A stretch of DNA of 64,000 nt, from positions 62,001 through 126,000 of the forward strand of contig CABZOI010000003.1 in NCBI GenBank assembly GCA_902527245.1, written 5' to 3'. This DNA comes from an uncultured SAR92 cluster bacterium. Lineage in GTDB: Bacteria > Pseudomonadota > Gammaproteobacteria > Pseudomonadales > Porticoccaceae. Under the pieces are notes generated by a model. That model saw only the letters and a list, made by a program, of their open reading frames with translations. It made no database searches and had not been told where the DNA came from. How positions within the stretch are numbered: position 1 is the first letter of the stretch; every line of letters starts with the position of its first letter. Positions 2,259-11,830 of the stretch are shown one piece after another. The translations under genes were made by a program, and so were the position numbers.

Positions 2259-3026
2259 TTAAGGTTTATCTTGAGAATTTAAACTTTGCCCTGATATGCA
2301 ATGACTGTCCGCACTCAAAAGGTAGATGTAAGGTAATATTACTTTTTCTGGGGTCGGCAAATTCCTAGGATTCTCCGCCGGGTACGCTTGTGCTCTCATT
2401 TTTGTTCTGGTGGCACCTGGATTAACTGCATTGAATCTTATTTTTGAGATATTCTCATGCTCCGATGCCCAAATTTGGACAAGAGCCTCCGTAGTAAATT
2501 TTGAAATCGCGTAGGCTCCCCAAAATGCCTTTGCTTTTCGCCCGACACTGGAGCTTGAGTATATTACAGATGCAGACTCAGATTTTTTAAGCACCGGTAT
2601 GAGGCACTGAGTCATCAAAAATTGAGACTTAAAATTTACTTGCATAACTTCATCTAACATCTTTTCAGAGTAGTCATCAAGTGAACTTAGATTTCCTAAA
2701 AGCGATGCATTCAACACAAGACCATCCAATTTGCCGAATTCCTTTTCGATTTTTTTCGTAAGGATTTGAAAATCGTCTTTTTTTGTACCAAGAAAGTCTG
2801 CAGGATATATCAATGGTTCCTTTAATCCCAATTCGAAAATTGATTGATAAAGTTTTTCAAGCTTAGCAATAGATCTTCCACAAATAATAACTGTCGCACC
2901 TAGCTCAGCACATTTCATCGAAAGCGCCGTTCCAATTCCTCCAGTTGATCCAGTGATTAATACTATCTTCTCGTCAAGTAAATTTTTAGCAGGCACGTAG
3001 TTAAAAGGCATTTTATGAAACAACAT
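2259..3026 (-). CDS. yciK: YciK-family short-chain dehydrogenase/reductase
   Basis: A classical SDR oxidoreductase of 255 residues, physiological substrate unknown. Visible features are the NAD(P)-binding TGSTGGIG (residues 25-32), the NAS motif (NASLLG, about 106-111), a catalytic serine in SSSSVG and the YxxxK pair (Y172/K176). The first ATG lies two bases after the upstream phosphatase stop, so the genes are co-transcribed; an alternative start is Met6. The order ubiG - HAD phosphatase - yciK is the one seen in pseudomonads, which is the main reason for the YciK name. The 3' end meets rluB tail to tail with no gap. Confidence 0.82.
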   Translation of the reverse strand: MLFHKMPFNYVPAKNLLDEKIVLITGSTGGIGTALSMKCAELGATVIICGRSIAKLEKLYQSIFELGLKEPLIYPADFLGTKKDDFQILTKKIEKEFGKLDGLVLNASLLGNLSSLDDYSEKMLDEVMQVNFKSQFLMTQCLIPVLKKSESASVIYSSSSVGRKAKAFWGAYAISKFTTEALVQIWASEHENISKIRFNAVNPGATRTKMRAQAYPAENPRNLPTPEKVILPYIYLLSADSHCISGQSLNSQDKP

Positions 3027-3028
3027 TT

Positions 3029-3697
3029 TTAGGGATGCTCTTTATGGAAAATGAAATCAAAGACATTTTCAGGTTTAGAAATTATAATATTAGCTCTCCA
3101 GTCCTCTATGTCCGTGTCCGCTTCCAAATATCCCCACTCAGCGGCGATTGTTGTCATTCCAGCTGCATTGCCGGACTGGATGTCTCTTAAATGATCTCCG
3201 ATGTAGACACAATCACACGGTTTTACTTCAACTTTTTGTGCAGCAAGCGTGAGTGGTTCAGGATCTGGTTTTGGATTCTTCGTATGCTCCGGACAGATTA
3301 TGACGGAGGCCCTCTGATGAAGTTTGAGTTTTTTGAGTAAATGTTCCGTGTACTTAATTGGTTTATTGGTCACAATTCCCCAGGGAATTTTATGCGTCTC
3401 GCAAGCATCTAGCACCAACTCTAGGCCATCAAAAATAGTAGTTTTTACCGCGATATTCTCATAATAAATTTCTAAATATTCTTTTTTTATTGCAGCGAAG
3501 TTTTCATGAGTGGAATCAATTTTGAAAGCTTTTTTTATCAAACCCTCTGATCCATTAGTAACACTACTTCTTATCTCTGATTCGGTGATAAGCGGCTTAT
3601 CATATTTTGAAAGTAAAAGATTCATAGAGAGAATAAAATCTGGTGCTGTATCCAAAAGCGTTCCGTCAAGATCGAATAAAACTGCTTTAAATAACAT
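3029..3697 (-). CDS. HAD-superfamily phosphatase, Gph/MupP type
   Basis: A 222-residue HAD hydrolase. Motif I is FDLDGT with nucleophile D9 and acid D11, motif II is the VTNKP stretch, and motif IV is IGDHLRD. Annotated homologues are called phosphoglycolate phosphatase (Gph). The gene directly between ubiG and yciK in Pseudomonas is MupP, N-acetylmuramic acid 6-phosphate phosphatase of peptidoglycan recycling, so that function is at least as likely here. The two cannot be separated by eye, and no symbol is given. It lies 14 nt after ubiG and 2 nt before yciK, in one minus-strand operon. The Shine-Dalgarno is weak. Confidence 0.82.
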   Translation of the reverse strand: MLFKAVLFDLDGTLLDTAPDFILSMNLLLSKYDKPLITESEIRSSVTNGSEGLIKKAFKIDSTHENFAAIKKEYLEIYYENIAVKTTIFDGLELVLDACETHKIPWGIVTNKPIKYTEHLLKKLKLHQRASVIICPEHTKNPKPDPEPLTLAAQKVEVKPCDCVYIGDHLRDIQSGNAAGMTTIAAEWGYLEADTDIEDWRANIIISKPENVFDFIFHKEHP

Positions 3698-3711: not shown

Positions 3712-4449
3712 TTAGATTTTTTTTGCATACACCATATAGTTTATGTCGACATCATTTGAACTGATCGAGAATTTGTCATTAATGGGATTGTATGTTAAAC
3801 CAGACAAGTCAATGACTTCTAAATTTGACTCTCTAAGCCATTGGCATAATTCAGAGGGTTTGATAAGTTTTTCGTATTTATGTGTTCCTTTTGGCAAAAG
3901 ATTCAAGATATATTCACCGCCCAAAATAGCTCCAAGATAGGACTTGATATTTCTGTTAATTGTTGACAGGAAAAGTTCTCCATCAGGCTTTAAAAGGGAG
4001 ACGCAGGATTTGATAATGGACGGTGGATTAGGAACATGCTCAAGCATTTCCATGCAAGTAATGGTATCAAAACTTTCTTTATGGGCTTCAGCGAATGCTT
4101 CAATCGTAGACCTTTCATAATTTATACTTAAATTTGATTCAAGCATATGTAATTTTGCAATCTCCAGCAGTGATTCTGCCATGTCTATCCCAGTTACATC
4201 GGCGCCCCTAAATGCCATAGACTCAGATAGAATTCCAGCACCACAACCTACGTCTAAAAGTTGCTTCTCCGCAACGTTTGTATGCGAATCGATCCAGTTA
4301 GACCGTAAAGGATTTATTTTATGAAGTGATTTAAACTCACCGTTTAGATCCCACCATTTAGAAGCAAGTTGATTAAACTTTTTGATTTCTGTTTCGTCAA
4401 TGTTATTGTTATCAACAGTTTCTTTTTTCATTTTTTTGTAGATATTCAC
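3712..4449 (-). CDS. ubiG: Ubiquinone biosynthesis O-methyltransferase UbiG
   Basis: SAM-dependent methyltransferase that performs both O-methylation steps of ubiquinone synthesis. The N-terminal FNQLASKWWDLNGEFKSLHKINPLR is typical of UbiG (quoted in part: ASKWWDLNGEFKSLHKINP), followed by the SAM motif LLDVGCGAGILSE and the post-motif CMEMLEHVPNP. Length of 245 residues fits. The upstream-most start is GTG at 4449, overlapping the amidohydrolase stop as GTGA; ATG at 4431 (Met7) is an alternative, and neither has a good Shine-Dalgarno. With ispB at 45845 it is the second quinone-pathway gene in the window. Confidence 0.93.
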   Translation of the reverse strand: MNIYKKMKKETVDNNNIDETEIKKFNQLASKWWDLNGEFKSLHKINPLRSNWIDSHTNVAEKQLLDVGCGAGILSESMAFRGADVTGIDMAESLLEIAKLHMLESNLSINYERSTIEAFAEAHKESFDTITCMEMLEHVPNPPSIIKSCVSLLKPDGELFLSTINRNIKSYLGAILGGEYILNLLPKGTHKYEKLIKPSELCQWLRESNLEVIDLSGLTYNPINDKFSISSNDVDINYMVYAKKI

Positions 4450-5729
4450 TCTTTATTGTTTAGCCATCTTTCAACTATGGTATTGACGGTACTTATAGGT
4501 ATTCTGTTTACTGATTGATCTCGCATTAGGTTTTCTCCCTTACTCCAGCTATGACTTATTTTTTTCTCTATTTCAGAAAAAATAATCCTTTCTGGTTGTT
4601 GATCGAGCGACAACCCAAGCATTTGGTCCAAATTAATCGCGATTATATCCGCATCTTTACCTTGCTCTAAGCTACCTATTTGTGACTCCCAACCGAATGC
4701 CCTGGCTCCATTAATAGTTGCCATTCTGATTAGTTGATGTGCAAGTAAATCTGAATCAGGACTTAGATTAATCCTCGCCAAGATTCCAGTTACTTTCATT
4801 AATTCGAATACATCTAACGTGGAAAATTTATTCGTATTCGCAGTTGCAAATGAAAAGTTTGGATTGTTTCCCTCAAGTTGAAAAAGTGTTTTGAAATATT
4901 CATCGGGATATCTTGTTGTCAAAGGTGTATGCAGAACCTTGCAGTTATATCGTTTTAAAGTACAACATAAATCATCAGTTATACTTTCGATTCCACTCAG
5001 TTGAGTTTGCTCGTTAAGAACTCCTGCGCTTTCGAGTGAGTCTACAATAAATTTCACATCAGCATTATTATGAAAGACAATATTAATAGGCATCTCAAGT
5101 TCGTTGGCATACTTTGCAGTGATAGATAATTGTTCACTTTTTACTAAATCATTTTGGTCAATCGAAAAAGCAAATTTTAAGGTTGATAAATCTTTATATT
5201 TGTCTCTTATCGATAGACCAAGTCGAAGATAATCTCCAAATTCTTTTGCGTAGTTGCTCTTTTTATTTTGTAGAACTAAACCTACTTGTAGTTTTATTCC
5301 AATCGATTTTGCTGCTGAAATCATTGCTTCTGGAAATATGACATTATGTCCAAAGCATGTGATACCTTTCCTCACCAGTTCGTGAATTCCAACAACACAA
5401 GCATCAAAGACAAAATTCTCATCTAATATTGAGTCTTGAATAGTTTTTATCGAACCATGTTCTGGAGCCACACTCTCGTTAATTTGGAGAATTTTCAATA
5501 AATTTTGAGTTATTTGTGCATCACAGTTAATAAATCCTGGAAGAAGTAAGTGATTCTGCAAAAACTCCTCTTCTTTTGGATACCAATTCGATTGAATTTC
5601 TTTTGTAGGTCCAATTGCGACGATTCTGCCTTTGTCTATCGCCAAAGAATAATCTTGTAAGACCATATTTTTGGGGATTACTGGAATTACAAATTTACTA
5701 TGAATTATTAAATCAATTTGAGATTTCAT
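4446..5729 (-). CDS. Amidohydrolase-superfamily protein (MtaD/TRZ-ATZ relative) lacking metal ligands
   Basis: The 427-residue protein follows the MtaD/SAH-deaminase fold: LLPGFIN near residue 62-68, GITCFGHNVIFPEA near 122, MATINGARAFGWESQIGSLEQGKDADIIAIN near 336-366 (key parts MATINGARAFG and GSLEQGKDADI). Active members carry an HxH pair after LLPGxIN, a HxxE motif, a later His and an Asp. Here the HxH position reads D70-A-Q72, the HxxE position reads V218-F-H-N221, the third His is about G246, and the GTDG aspartate position is about A297 in FATANTN. All expected metal and catalytic residues are therefore gone, although the reading frame is intact. The same locus in pseudomonads holds an active 5'-methylthioadenosine/SAH deaminase. 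I infer a pseudoenzyme or a decaying gene. It heads the ubiG operon. Confidence 0.8.
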   Translation of the reverse strand: MKSQIDLIIHSKFVIPVIPKNMVLQDYSLAIDKGRIVAIGPTKEIQSNWYPKEEEFLQNHLLLPGFINCDAQITQNLLKILQINESVAPEHGSIKTIQDSILDENFVFDACVVGIHELVRKGITCFGHNVIFPEAMISAAKSIGIKLQVGLVLQNKKSNYAKEFGDYLRLGLSIRDKYKDLSTLKFAFSIDQNDLVKSEQLSITAKYANELEMPINIVFHNNADVKFIVDSLESAGVLNEQTQLSGIESITDDLCCTLKRYNCKVLHTPLTTRYPDEYFKTLFQLEGNNPNFSFATANTNKFSTLDVFELMKVTGILARINLSPDSDLLAHQLIRMATINGARAFGWESQIGSLEQGKDADIIAINLDQMLGLSLDQQPERIIFSEIEKKISHSWSKGENLMRDQSVNRIPISTVNTIVERWLNNKE

Positions 5730-5929: not shown

Positions 5930-8503
5930 ATGTCAGAACTTGCAAAAGAAATTGTACCAGTCAATATCGAAGATGAGTTAAAACAATCGTATCTTGATTA
6001 TGCAATGAGTGTAATTGTGGGCAGGGCGCTGCCAGATGTTCGTGACGGACTTAAGCCTGTCCACAGAAGAGTTTTGTATGCGATGAGCGAACTTGGTAAT
6101 TCATGGAATAAACCGTACAAAAAATCTGCAAGGGTGGTTGGTGATGTAATCGGTAAGTATCATCCTCATGGCGATTCCGCTGTTTATGAAACGATTGTCA
6201 GAATGGCGCAACCATTCTCGCTACGCTACATGCTGGTTGATGGTCAAGGAAACTTTGGTTCTGTTGACGGCGATCGCGCTGCGGCGATGAGGTACACCGA
6301 AATCAGAATGACAAAAATGGCTCATGCGCTGCTGGAAGATCTAGAAAAAGACACAGTCGAATTTAATCCAAATTATGATGAAACAGAATCGATACCGCAA
6401 ACGCTCCCTACAAAAGTACCCAATCTGCTAGTCAATGGTTCATCAGGAATTGCGGTAGGTATGGCAACAAATATCCCTCCGCATAACCTCAAAGAGATTA
6501 TAGAGGGATGTTTGGCTTTGATTGAAAATAGCGAAATTGAGATCGATGAATTAATGCAAATAATACCTGGCCCAGATTTTCCAACAGGTGCGATTATCAA
6601 TGGTAGAGCAGGCATAGTTGAAGCATATAAAACTGGTAGGGGACGAATCTATGTCAGAGCAAAAGCTGATGTGGAGGTGAATGAGCAAACAAATAAAGAA
6701 AGCATAATCGTTACTGAAATTCCATATCAATTAAACAAGTCACGACTTATCGAGAAAATTGCCGAGTTAGTGAAGGATAAAAAGATTGAGGGCATTTCTG
6801 AACTTCGTGATGAGTCAGACAAAGATGGCATGAGAATAGTTATCGAGTTAAGACGCGGAGAAGTAACTGATGTTGTGCTTAATAATCTTTATGCCCAGAC
6901 TCAAATGCAAAGCGTGTTCGGGATAAATATAGTTGCCCTTGTTGATGATCAACCGAAAATATTAAATTTAAAACAGGTCTTGGAGGCGTTTATCCGTCAT
7001 CGACAAGAGGTGGTTACGCGAAGAACACTGTTTCTAATGAGAAAAGCGAGAGACCGAGCTCATAGCTTAGAGGGTTTTGCAGTTGCGCTAGCAAATATCG
7101 ATGAGATCATACAAATTATTAAACAGTCAGCAACGGCTGCAGATGCAAGGGAGAAATTAGTATCCAAAACTTGGTTGCCAGGAGATAACATTTCGAAGAT
7201 GCTAAGTAAACTTGAGCCTGGCATTGCCAGGCCTGAATGGCTTGATGAGAAATATGGATTGAAGAATAAAAAATACAAAATCTCGCCCGAGCAAGCGAAG
7301 GATATTTTAGAGTTAAGATTGAATAGGCTCACGGGTATGGAGCATGAAAAAATAATCGAAGAGTTTCATGAAAAGTTAGAGGAGATTGCGACTTACCAAA
7401 ATATTTTGGGAAATTCGGATGTCTTAATGGATGTTATTAAAACTGAGCTTTTGGAAGTTAAAGAGGAGTTTGGTGATGATAGAAGGACTGAAATTTGCGA
7501 ATCAGCTCACGATTTAACGCTAGAAGATTTAATCACAGAGGAGGAGAGGGTTGTAACAATATCTAATGGAGGATATGCCAAGACTCAACCATTGGATGAT
7601 TATCAGGCTCAAAGAAGGGGTGGAATGGGTAAATCGGCAACAGCTGTGAAAGATGAAGATTTCGTAGAGCATCTATTAATAGCTAGCACGCACTCTACGA
7701 TCTTGTGTTTTACAAATTTAGGTAAAGTTTATTGGCTTAAAGTTTATCAAATCCCATTGGCAAGCAGAAATGCGCGTGGTAGACCAGTCGTTAATTTATT
7801 ACCTCTAGATGAAGAGGAGAGTATTAGCTCAATACTACCTATTGATGAATATTCTGATGATAAATTTATTATTATGTCCACTGCCAATGGCACTATCAAA
7901 AAGACTAATCTTCAAGCATTTTCTAGGCCAAGAAGTGTAGGATTGCGCGCCGTTGATCTTGCTGAGGGTGATTACCTTGTTGGTACCGCAATAGTTGATG
8001 GAACCAAAGATATTATGTTGCTCAGTTCTGAAGGGAAAGCAGTTCGTTTCAAGGAGACCGACGTCCGATCGATGGGAAGAACCGCGAAAGGTGTCAGAGG
8101 CATGCGTCTCGATCCTGAGCACAAAATTATTTCGATGCTTATTCCGAGTGAGGGAGGATTGTTGCTAGCAGTCTGCCAGAATGGTTTTGGTAAAAGAACT
8201 CAATTGAAGGAATTTCCTACAAAAGGTCGAGGCGGTAAAGGGATGATTGCGATCCAAACAAGTGAGAGAAATGGTCCTTTAGTTGGAGCGACTCAGTTAT
8301 TTGCTGGCGATGAAATAATGTTGATTTCAGATCAGGGTACAATGGTGAGGACAAGAGGTGATGAAGTATCCATAGTAGGACGAAATACACAGGGAGTTCT
8401 TATTATTCGTCTGAAAGAAAACGAAAAGTTAGTCAGAATAGCGCGGATATCTGAACCATCTGAAGATGATTCTGAGACTAGCGAAGATGGAACAAATGAT
8501 TGA
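5930..8503 (+). CDS. gyrA: DNA gyrase subunit A
   Basis: Cleavage/religation subunit of DNA gyrase, the type II topoisomerase that introduces negative supercoils. At 857 residues it is close to typical length. The N-terminal winged-helix/tower domain has the catalytic tyrosine Y122 in [10 protein letters not shown]. The quinolone-resistance region reads GDSAVYE, that is S83 (susceptible-type) and E87 (acidic residue kept, Asp in E. coli). The GyrA box is QRRGGMG in the C-terminal beta-pinwheel domain, and the C-terminus is acidic. The stop TGA (8501-8503) is followed immediately by the pheA ATG, with no serC between them as is usual in pseudomonads. Confidence 0.98.
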
Positions 8504-9610: not shown

Positions 9611-11830
9611 ATGACAAACAAATATAGAGCTGGTGATTCTCAGGTAGATAAGTTGATTGTTTTGGGACTTGGGTTGTTGGGAGCCAGCATATGCGCGGCT
9701 GCAAAAAAATTAGGATTAGCAAATGAAATAATCGGTATTAGCCGAAGGCAGTCGACAATTGAAATAGCTCATGCAAAAGAAATCATTGATAAAAGTGCGG
9801 ATAGCCTGGCCACTTTGGCAGGAAATTTTGGTGAAGACGATCTCCTTGTATTGGCGGTTCCAACTTTAGCGATGAAAAGTGTTTTATCAGAATGTCAGGA
9901 ACACGTGCCTCCTTCTGTCACAATAACTGATGTCGCAAGCGTTAAAACCAAAATCATCGAATTTGCCGAACAAGTGTATGGCGATATACCCAAAAATTTT
10001 GTCCCGGGTCACCCAATCGCTGGATCGGAAAAAAGTGGGATAAATTCGGCGAATCCCGACTTATTTAAAAATCACAAAGTGGTGCTTACCCCTAAGGAAA
10101 TGCCTAGTCAAGGGCATATAAATAAAGTCAGTGAGATTTGGACTAGATTGGGCGCAGATGTAACGTTTATGAACGCTGATGATCATGACAGGATATTTGC
10201 GGCTACAAGTCATCTTCCGCATTACTTGGCATATTCGCTTGTTGATACTCTCTCCAGAGAAAGCAATGCGAATGAAATTTTTGATCATGCGGCTGGAGGG
10301 TTTAAAGATTTTACTCGAATTGCTGGGAGTGATCCCATTATGTGGCATGACATTGCGTTAGCAAATAGTCAGTTTATTTTGGAGATAATGGATAGATACA
10401 TAGCGGATATAACTAAATTGCGGGATGCGATTGAAAAAAAGGATTCTCGTTACTTGTTAGATACCTTCAATCGGTCGCGACTCTTTAAAACAAAAAAAAA
10501 GTATCAAAAAGACAGAAGTATTGATTTTATTTCAAAACCCTGTGGGGAATTGAGAGGTGAAATCACTGTGCCTGGTGATAAATCAGTTTCACATCGATCA
10601 ATTATTTTTGGCTCACTTGCTCAAGGTACATCAGAAATAACAGGTTTTCTTGAGGGTGAAGATAGTTTGGCTACTCTAAATGCATTTAGAGAAATGGGTG
10701 TCCTGATTGAAGGGCCCGAGGATGGGCGTTTAATAATTCATGGGGTTGGGTTACATGGACTAACTGAGCCAGCAAGAGAGTTAGATCTGGGTAATTCTGG
10801 TACATCAATGCGTCTTATGACTGGCTTACTTAGTGCGCAAGAGTTCAAATCTAGGCTTGTAGGCGATGAATCTTTGTCAAGTCGACCAATGCGGCGAGTA
10901 ACTGTGCCGTTATTGGAAATGGGGGCAGACATTCGGACAACGGCTGACGGAACTCCGCCCGTAGAGGTAATTGGTGGTCGTTTATTGAAACCAATAAAAT
11001 ATACACTTCCCATTGCCAGCGCGCAGCTAAAATCAAGTCTAATTCTTGCAGCTATGTACGCTGATGGAGAAAGTGTCATAATCGAACCTGTGATCACCAG
11101 AGATCATACTGAAAGGATGATGACGGCGTTTGGTTGCAATATCTCCGTTGATGACTCCAGTCGGAATATCAAGATCCAAGGTGGTTATCAGCATATCGGA
11201 ACAAGGATAGACATACCTGGTGATATATCCTCAGCTGCATTCTTTATGGTCGCTGCTGCCATTTGTCCAGGCTCTGAAATTAATCTTTTAAATATCGGAA
11301 TAAATCCCACTCGAATAGGCGTCCTAAATATTTTAAAAGAGATGGGTGCTGACATTAAGATAACTAATAGACAAGACAAATTGTGTGAGCCAACTGCGAA
11401 TATTCGCGTACGATACTCGTCTCTAAAAGGAATCGAAATCCCTGAAAATCAAGTTTCCCTGGCAATTGATGAGTTCCCGATAATTTTTGTAGCCGCAGCT
11501 TGTGCAACGGGTGAAACAATACTAAGGGGTGCAGAAGAGTTAAAAGTCAAAGAAAGTGATCGGATAGAGAGTATGGCAAAGGGTTTGAAAATTTTGGGGA
11601 TTGAGACGGATGTCTTTGACGATGGAATTAAAATTATTGGGGGTAAAATTGGCTCAGGGACAGTAAACAGTAATCATGACCACAGAATAGCGATGGCTTT
11701 TTCAGTTGCGGGTTTACGTTCGAGCGGTGCTATTACTATTCAAAATTGTAAAAATATCGCTACTTCTTTTCCTAATTTTATTGATATAGCTAGATCAGTT
11801 GGTATGAAGATCGATCTGGAGTCAAATTGA
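9611..11830 (+). CDS. tyrA-aroA: Fused prephenate dehydrogenase (TyrA) / EPSP synthase (AroA)
   Basis: One 739-residue polypeptide joins two aromatic-pathway enzymes. Residues about 14-300 are a TyrA dehydrogenase with a Rossmann GLGLLGAS and the substrate motif GHPIAGSEKSG. Residues about 310-737 are AroA (3-phosphoshikimate 1-carboxyvinyltransferase), with PGDKSVSHRS, LDLGNSGTSMRLM and the C-terminal DHRIAMAF motif. This fusion is known in Pseudomonas and relatives and is not an assembly artefact: the frame is open throughout and the linker near KKYQKDRSIDF is normal. hisC, often located before it in that group, is absent. The stop overlaps the cmk start as TTGA. Confidence 0.96.
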   Translation: MTNKYRAGDSQVDKLIVLGLGLLGASICAAAKKLGLANEIIGISRRQSTIEIAHAKEIIDKSADSLATLAGNFGEDDLLVLAVPTLAMKSVLSECQEHVPPSVTITDVASVKTKIIEFAEQVYGDIPKNFVPGHPIAGSEKSGINSANPDLFKNHKVVLTPKEMPSQGHINKVSEIWTRLGADVTFMNADDHDRIFAATSHLPHYLAYSLVDTLSRESNANEIFDHAAGGFKDFTRIAGSDPIMWHDIALANSQFILEIMDRYIADITKLRDAIEKKDSRYLLDTFNRSRLFKTKKKYQKDRSIDFISKPCGELRGEITVPGDKSVSHRSIIFGSLAQGTSEITGFLEGEDSLATLNAFREMGVLIEGPEDGRLIIHGVGLHGLTEPARELDLGNSGTSMRLMTGLLSAQEFKSRLVGDESLSSRPMRRVTVPLLEMGADIRTTADGTPPVEVIGGRLLKPIKYTLPIASAQLKSSLILAAMYADGESVIIEPVITRDHTERMMTAFGCNISVDDSSRNIKIQGGYQHIGTRIDIPGDISSAAFFMVAAAICPGSEINLLNIGINPTRIGVLNILKEMGADIKITNRQDKLCEPTANIRVRYSSLKGIEIPENQVSLAIDEFPIIFVAAACATGETILRGAEELKVKESDRIESMAKGLKILGIETDVFDDGIKIIGGKIGSGTVNSNHDHRIAMAFSVAGLRSSGAITIQNCKNIATSFPNFIDIARSVGMKIDLESN

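Follow-up and report, generated by a model that had tools for sequence, protein, structure and literature searches.

A demetallated MtaD orthologue heading the ubiG operon of a SAR92 cluster bacterium is probably a constrained, recurrent single-copy pseudoenzyme

INTRODUCTION

In Pseudomonas aeruginosa, 5'-methylthioadenosine (MTA) is deaminated to methylthioinosine, and phosphorolysis follows (PMC6302742). Structures are available for MtaD of this organism (4dyk, 4gbd) and for a homologue from C. violaceum (4f0r, 4f0s), both of which bind Zn and deaminate MTA. Non-catalytic proteins of related fold are also on record, in that the P. aeruginosa ATCase needs an inactive homologue of dihydroorotase (PMC7053772). 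Gene duplication is the origin usually given for pseudoenzymes (PMC6549527).

Here we analyze an mtaD gene from an uncultured SAR92 cluster bacterium of the family Porticoccaceae, located in a 64,000-nucleotide stretch of DNA that we refer to as the window. We compare it with its orthologues in the family and beyond, and ask what may keep a deaminase scaffold in place once its active site is gone.

RESULTS

The locus and its conservation. The mtaD reading frame runs from 5729 to 4446 on the minus strand, opens with ATG, and continues for 427 codons with no internal stop. It stands first before ubiG-mupP-yciK, its place at the head of the ubiG operon having been recognized in the initial annotation, and it diverges from gyrA (Table 1). 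The same order, gyrA|mtaD>ubiG, is found in family members with enough flanking sequence, which identifies the window gene as an orthologue by synteny. Elsewhere in the window, a single 739-aa frame on the plus strand (9611-11830) reads by eye, in translation, as a fusion of TyrA (prephenate dehydrogenase) and AroA (EPSP synthase); fusions of the TyrA-AroA type occur in pseudomonads.

Table 1. Features of the window and demetallated lineages of the comparison
Feature	Position or members	Strand	Basis or remark
Demetallated MtaD orthologue (TRZ/ATZ / MTA-SAH deaminase family), 427 aa	4446..5729	minus	ORF, profile, alignment, predicted fold
ubiG (ubiquinone O-methyltransferase), immediately 3' of mtaD	3712..4449	minus	GTG/ATG start at or just beyond the mtaD stop
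mupP/gph-type HAD phosphatase, ubiG operon	3029..3697	minus	position and reading of translation
yciK-type short-chain dehydrogenase, ubiG operon	2259..3026	minus	position and reading of translation
gyrA, divergent neighbour upstream of mtaD, anchor of the syntenic locus	5930..8503	plus	
HxH metal site (after first barrel strand), now D70-A71-Q72	5514..5522	minus	alignment with intact orthologues
HxxE (metal His and catalytic Glu), now V218-F-H-N221	5067..5078	minus	alignment with intact orthologues
Third active-site His, now G246	4992..4994	minus	alignment with intact orthologues
Metal/catalytic Asp, now A297	4839..4841	minus	alignment with intact orthologues
C-terminal scaffold motif kept, MATINGARAFG...IGSLEQGKDADII	4635..4724	minus	
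Clade A, demetallated	window, L009		
Clade B, demetallated	L042, L064, L070, L071, L072		
Clade C, demetallated	L036, L093, L095, L096, L098, L100		
Clade D, demetallated	L058, L066, L077, L078		
Clade E, demetallated	L085, L089		
f13, demetallated	G635, G656, G694, G732		
f15, demetallated	G589		
f165, demetallated	G274, G482 (loci L275, L274)		genomes of 1.0-1.1 Mb; another family of the class; gyrA|mtaD>ubiG locus

A family member without its active site. The best profile for the window protein was NF006549/PRK09045, which matched over the full length (residues 2-424 out of 427) with 218.5 bits, well short of the curated equivalog cut-off of 540 bits. The closest solved structures were the MTA/adenosine deaminases 4dyk/4gbd (P. 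aeruginosa), 4dzh, and 4f0r/4f0s, together with 3lnp. These matches bear out the earlier description of a full-length protein of the MtaD/SAH-deaminase family. Alignment with intact orthologues showed that none of the family's defining sites, HxH, HxxE, the third His, and the catalytic Asp, is present; all five metal and catalytic positions are lost at the residues that had been proposed (DAQ, V218/N221, G246, and A297). No other placement of these motifs was found in the window protein. The C-terminal stretch said to be preserved, MATINGARAFG...IGSLEQGKDADI, is indeed unbroken.

The AlphaFold model of the protein (pLDDT 87.9, pTM 0.90) has the amidohydrolase barrel and sandwich at full length and aligns with 4dyk over 419 residues (Z 49.6, rmsd 2.7), with the lowest confidence in the region of the active-site lid, at about residues 80-100. 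The fold is thus predicted to be intact. We then scored the 118 positions at which conservation reaches ≥95% among 81 intact members of the family. The window protein retains 5 of the 48 that lie in active-site loops, a set that we drew from motif positions rather than from coordinates, against 46 of the 70 elsewhere (Fisher p = 1.3e-9), so that its losses are concentrated in the active site and are not random. It is the most diverged copy and carries a deletion of ~10 residues near residue 226. Coding periodicity is retained (GC1/2/3 of 0.44/0.31/0.27), and synonymous codon use is genome-like, as in a working gene. A second intact mtaD was not found in this genome, whose remaining amidohydrolases are distant.

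Recurrence of the loss. Among ~106 Porticoccaceae orthologues, taken mostly from incomplete metagenome-assembled genomes and with start codons chosen mechanically, 19 have lost the metal site (clades A to E in Table 1). All of the ~106 that have enough flank share the locus gyrA<-|mtaD>ubiG>mupP>yciK. L009, from the only congener of the window organism with the gene, is 40% identical to the window protein; it lacks HxH, the His of HxxE, and the third His, and it keeps the Asp and the Glu. The order in which ligands were lost varies: HxH remains in some members of clades B and C, clades C, D, and E retain the third His, and L009 retains the Asp. One otherwise intact-looking MtaD (L023:1411-2754, genome G011) has a change of the HxxE metal His to Asn as its sole loss, together with an altered GTDG-APNC loop, and it is possibly a candidate for a first step in active-site loss. 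We also note that one bin (G101) contains two different intact mtaD-ubiG loci (L052, L068), which reflects either a mixed bin or a real duplication.

A FastTree phylogeny of MtaD itself groups all of the degenerate g1/g11 copies on long branches; we therefore counted losses from the neighbouring genes, whose tree indicates at least three within Porticoccaceae. A single ancestral loss in the family was rejected, as constraining the degenerate rows together gave a p-AU of 0.00013. Three further demetallated lineages (f13, f15, and f165) were identified outside Porticoccaceae at the equivalent locus, by a class- and order-level screen that covered low-scoring full-length matches at intermediate scores only and is not a census. 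Intact members are present as well in f13 (G048) and f15 (G695). A search of genome contigs with the window protein as the sole query returned nothing.

Selection on demetallated copies. We estimated ω by codon maximum likelihood with our own implementation of a GY94-type model (F3x4). The values were 0.194, 0.236, 0.185, and 0.203 for clades B, C, D, and E, respectively, and 0.170 for f13; the f165 pair gave 0.048 at a high, saturated dS. Neutrality (ω = 1) was rejected in each of these groups, with p from 5e-15 to 3e-90, and NG86 pairs were concordant (0.14-0.26 at dS of 0.1-1.5). Across a tree-wide dS of 1.2-2.5, clades B to D were free of stops. For clades C and D, ω is close to that of the neighbouring mupP (0.219 and 0.204). 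Intact clades have ω of 0.064-0.134, and the degenerate values are 2-3 times as high, which indicates that constraint is partly relaxed. Clade B has a uniform ω along the protein, and clades C and D come close to this; in intact clades, by contrast, constraint is tightest in the barrel. These codon-substitution estimates show that purifying selection maintains demetallated orthologues in several independent lineages.

For the window copy itself, the comparison available is with L009, and because synonymous change between the two is saturated, ω = 1 could be rejected only for their joint path (p = 1e-43). The initial annotation had offered either a constrained non-catalytic role or very recent relaxation, to be decided by dN/dS and by the residue pattern in relatives. 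The former is supported by ω of 0.17-0.24 and uninterrupted frames in related demetallated copies, far from what simple decay would give, and by the 19 Porticoccaceae orthologues without the metal site. Recent relaxation does not account for the wider pattern, in which changed residues are common to whole clades and L009 too has lost ligands; at most it may apply to the window's own branch.

Metabolic context. Absence of mtnA had been taken as a sign that the MTA salvage step might have been dropped in this lineage. Lineage-specific mtnA loss was ruled out as a cause, because the gene is missing nearly family-wide: it scored over the cut-off in 1 of 112 Porticoccaceae genomes and is absent also where MtaD is intact. 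Degeneration is accompanied by the absence of a full-length nucleoside phosphorylase of the MtiP/MtnP type (PF01048), found in none of the 19 degenerate genomes, where G127 and G131 gave weak partial matches in a 188-aa frame; many intact genomes, however, lack one too. Two other candidate causes proved uninformative, loss of spermidine synthesis because SpeD is rare across the family, and replaced SAH removal because AhcY is nearly universal, including in the window's genome.

Loss of the gene and its junction with ubiG. Three genomes have no mtaD between gyrA and ubiG; in G005 and G111 it is cleanly deleted so that gyrA adjoins ubiG, and G070 also lacks it. In G072 (L253) an internal deletion leaves ~74 N-terminal and ~62 C-terminal residues. 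The gene of G103 (L104) is frameshifted and ~95% identical to an intact relative; this frameshift could be an assembly error. In degenerate members, the mtaD-ubiG junction ranges from overlap to a gap of >30 bp (start calls are approximate), and this variability rules out a conserved translational coupling of the two genes.

DISCUSSION

The window gene probably encodes a constrained non-catalytic protein, one instance of a recurrent single-copy pseudoenzyme. Its catalytic motifs are absent while the fold, by prediction, is retained, and purifying selection acts on the demetallated protein in clades B to E, f13, and f165. Since the catalytic metal can probably no longer be held, MTA/SAH deamination by the family mechanism is very unlikely, judging from the aligned residues. 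Selection preserves the protein in the lineages where it can be tested, and a second, non-enzymatic job is therefore probable.

Other readings have to be weighed against this one. The frame might be translated for the operon's sake only, averting polarity on ubiG, with a product that need merely fold harmlessly. The position of mtaD at the head of the ubiG operon family-wide favours this reading, as does constraint that is even along the protein, which fold-only selection would predict. Sister lineages have nevertheless deleted mtaD cleanly, so the operon has no need of the frame, and this weakens an account by polarity only; the junction is not conserved, and an ω of ~0.2 is more than frame-keeping demands. 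We consider this explanation unlikely. Slow decay, with the gene on its way to becoming a pseudogene and its frame open by chance or because the decay is recent, is quite improbable. The elevated dN/dS of the degenerate clades, the real losses in the family, and the strong divergence of the window copy would all be in keeping with it, but rejection of ω = 1 in every degenerate clade largely refutes it for the sister clades, among which B to D have stayed free of stops, and the window copy has kept the periodicity and codon use of a coding gene.

Two further readings give the emptied barrel a ligand or a reaction. In clade D, 56% of the conserved positions in active-site loops are retained, among them SNLKL-type residues and the Glu of HxxE, as might be expected of a sensor or sink to which MTA, SAH, or some other nucleoside would bind without turnover. 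With so few loop positions kept in the window protein and with loops that are not conserved across lineages, such ligand binding is highly improbable here. New catalysis would fit the residues held in common within clades; clade D, for instance, has RIRLHE together with GTE, and clade C has GSGGF(S/T)RD. No polar cluster is common to the lineages, however, and the operon hints at no substrate, and we give this reading very little credence.

Returning to a constrained non-catalytic protein, we propose that MtaD may have an older second role as a folded protein, and that this role alone would have been kept where deamination became dispensable. The active-site loops differ among lineages, so there is no shared new site to indicate the function. 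Our guess, by analogy with the inactive dihydroorotase homologue of the P. aeruginosa ATCase, is that MtaD may lend structural or regulatory support to what the adjacent operon encodes, with UbiG as the likeliest partner; UbiG comes first to mind because ubiG lies directly downstream of mtaD in 52 of 76 named gamma- and betaproteobacterial relatives (raw count); from gene adjacency, such a partnership would still be rather doubtful. Some genomes drop mtaD yet keep ubiG, and the role is therefore not universal. More broadly, and tentatively, MtaD across Gammaproteobacteria might have a conserved function that is independent of catalysis and linked to the ubiG operon, and so to ubiquinone synthesis, with at least six lineages having lost the activity and kept that function, the pseudoenzyme being made in place without duplication.

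An active site lost in place several times over, from a protein that selection goes on preserving, amounts to a natural experiment that separates catalysis from other functions. The pattern suggests a hidden second role of MtaD, which might explain its frequent adjacency to ubiG, and it implies that some marine genes annotated as 'TRZ/ATZ family hydrolase' are not hydrolases. A literature search for a non-catalytic MtaD found nothing; most subscription journals were outside this search, and earlier reports are possible.

The window protein shares its fold over the whole length with P. aeruginosa MtaD and the C. violaceum homologue (Z 48.9-49.6; 23-24% identity), along with a common family profile. 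Unlike these zinc-dependent deaminases, it has no metal ligand at all, and most of the pocket is gone. In this it resembles pseudoenzymes generally, in which conserved catalytic residues are lost while fold and constraint are retained (PMC10211241). The nearest parallel is the pseudo-dihydroorotase of the P. aeruginosa ATCase (PMC7053772), likewise a bacterial amidohydrolase-fold protein that is non-catalytic and still needed, in that case as an assembly partner. That protein has a known partner in ATCase, whereas for the MtaD pseudoenzyme a putative partner, UbiG, is suggested by conserved gene adjacency. The two also differ in that the MtaD loss struck a single-copy orthologue several times, with no active second copy found in the window's genome. 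Compared with the duplication-born pseudoenzymes that are usually described (PMC6549527), MtaD represents repeated conversion in place at one syntenic locus.
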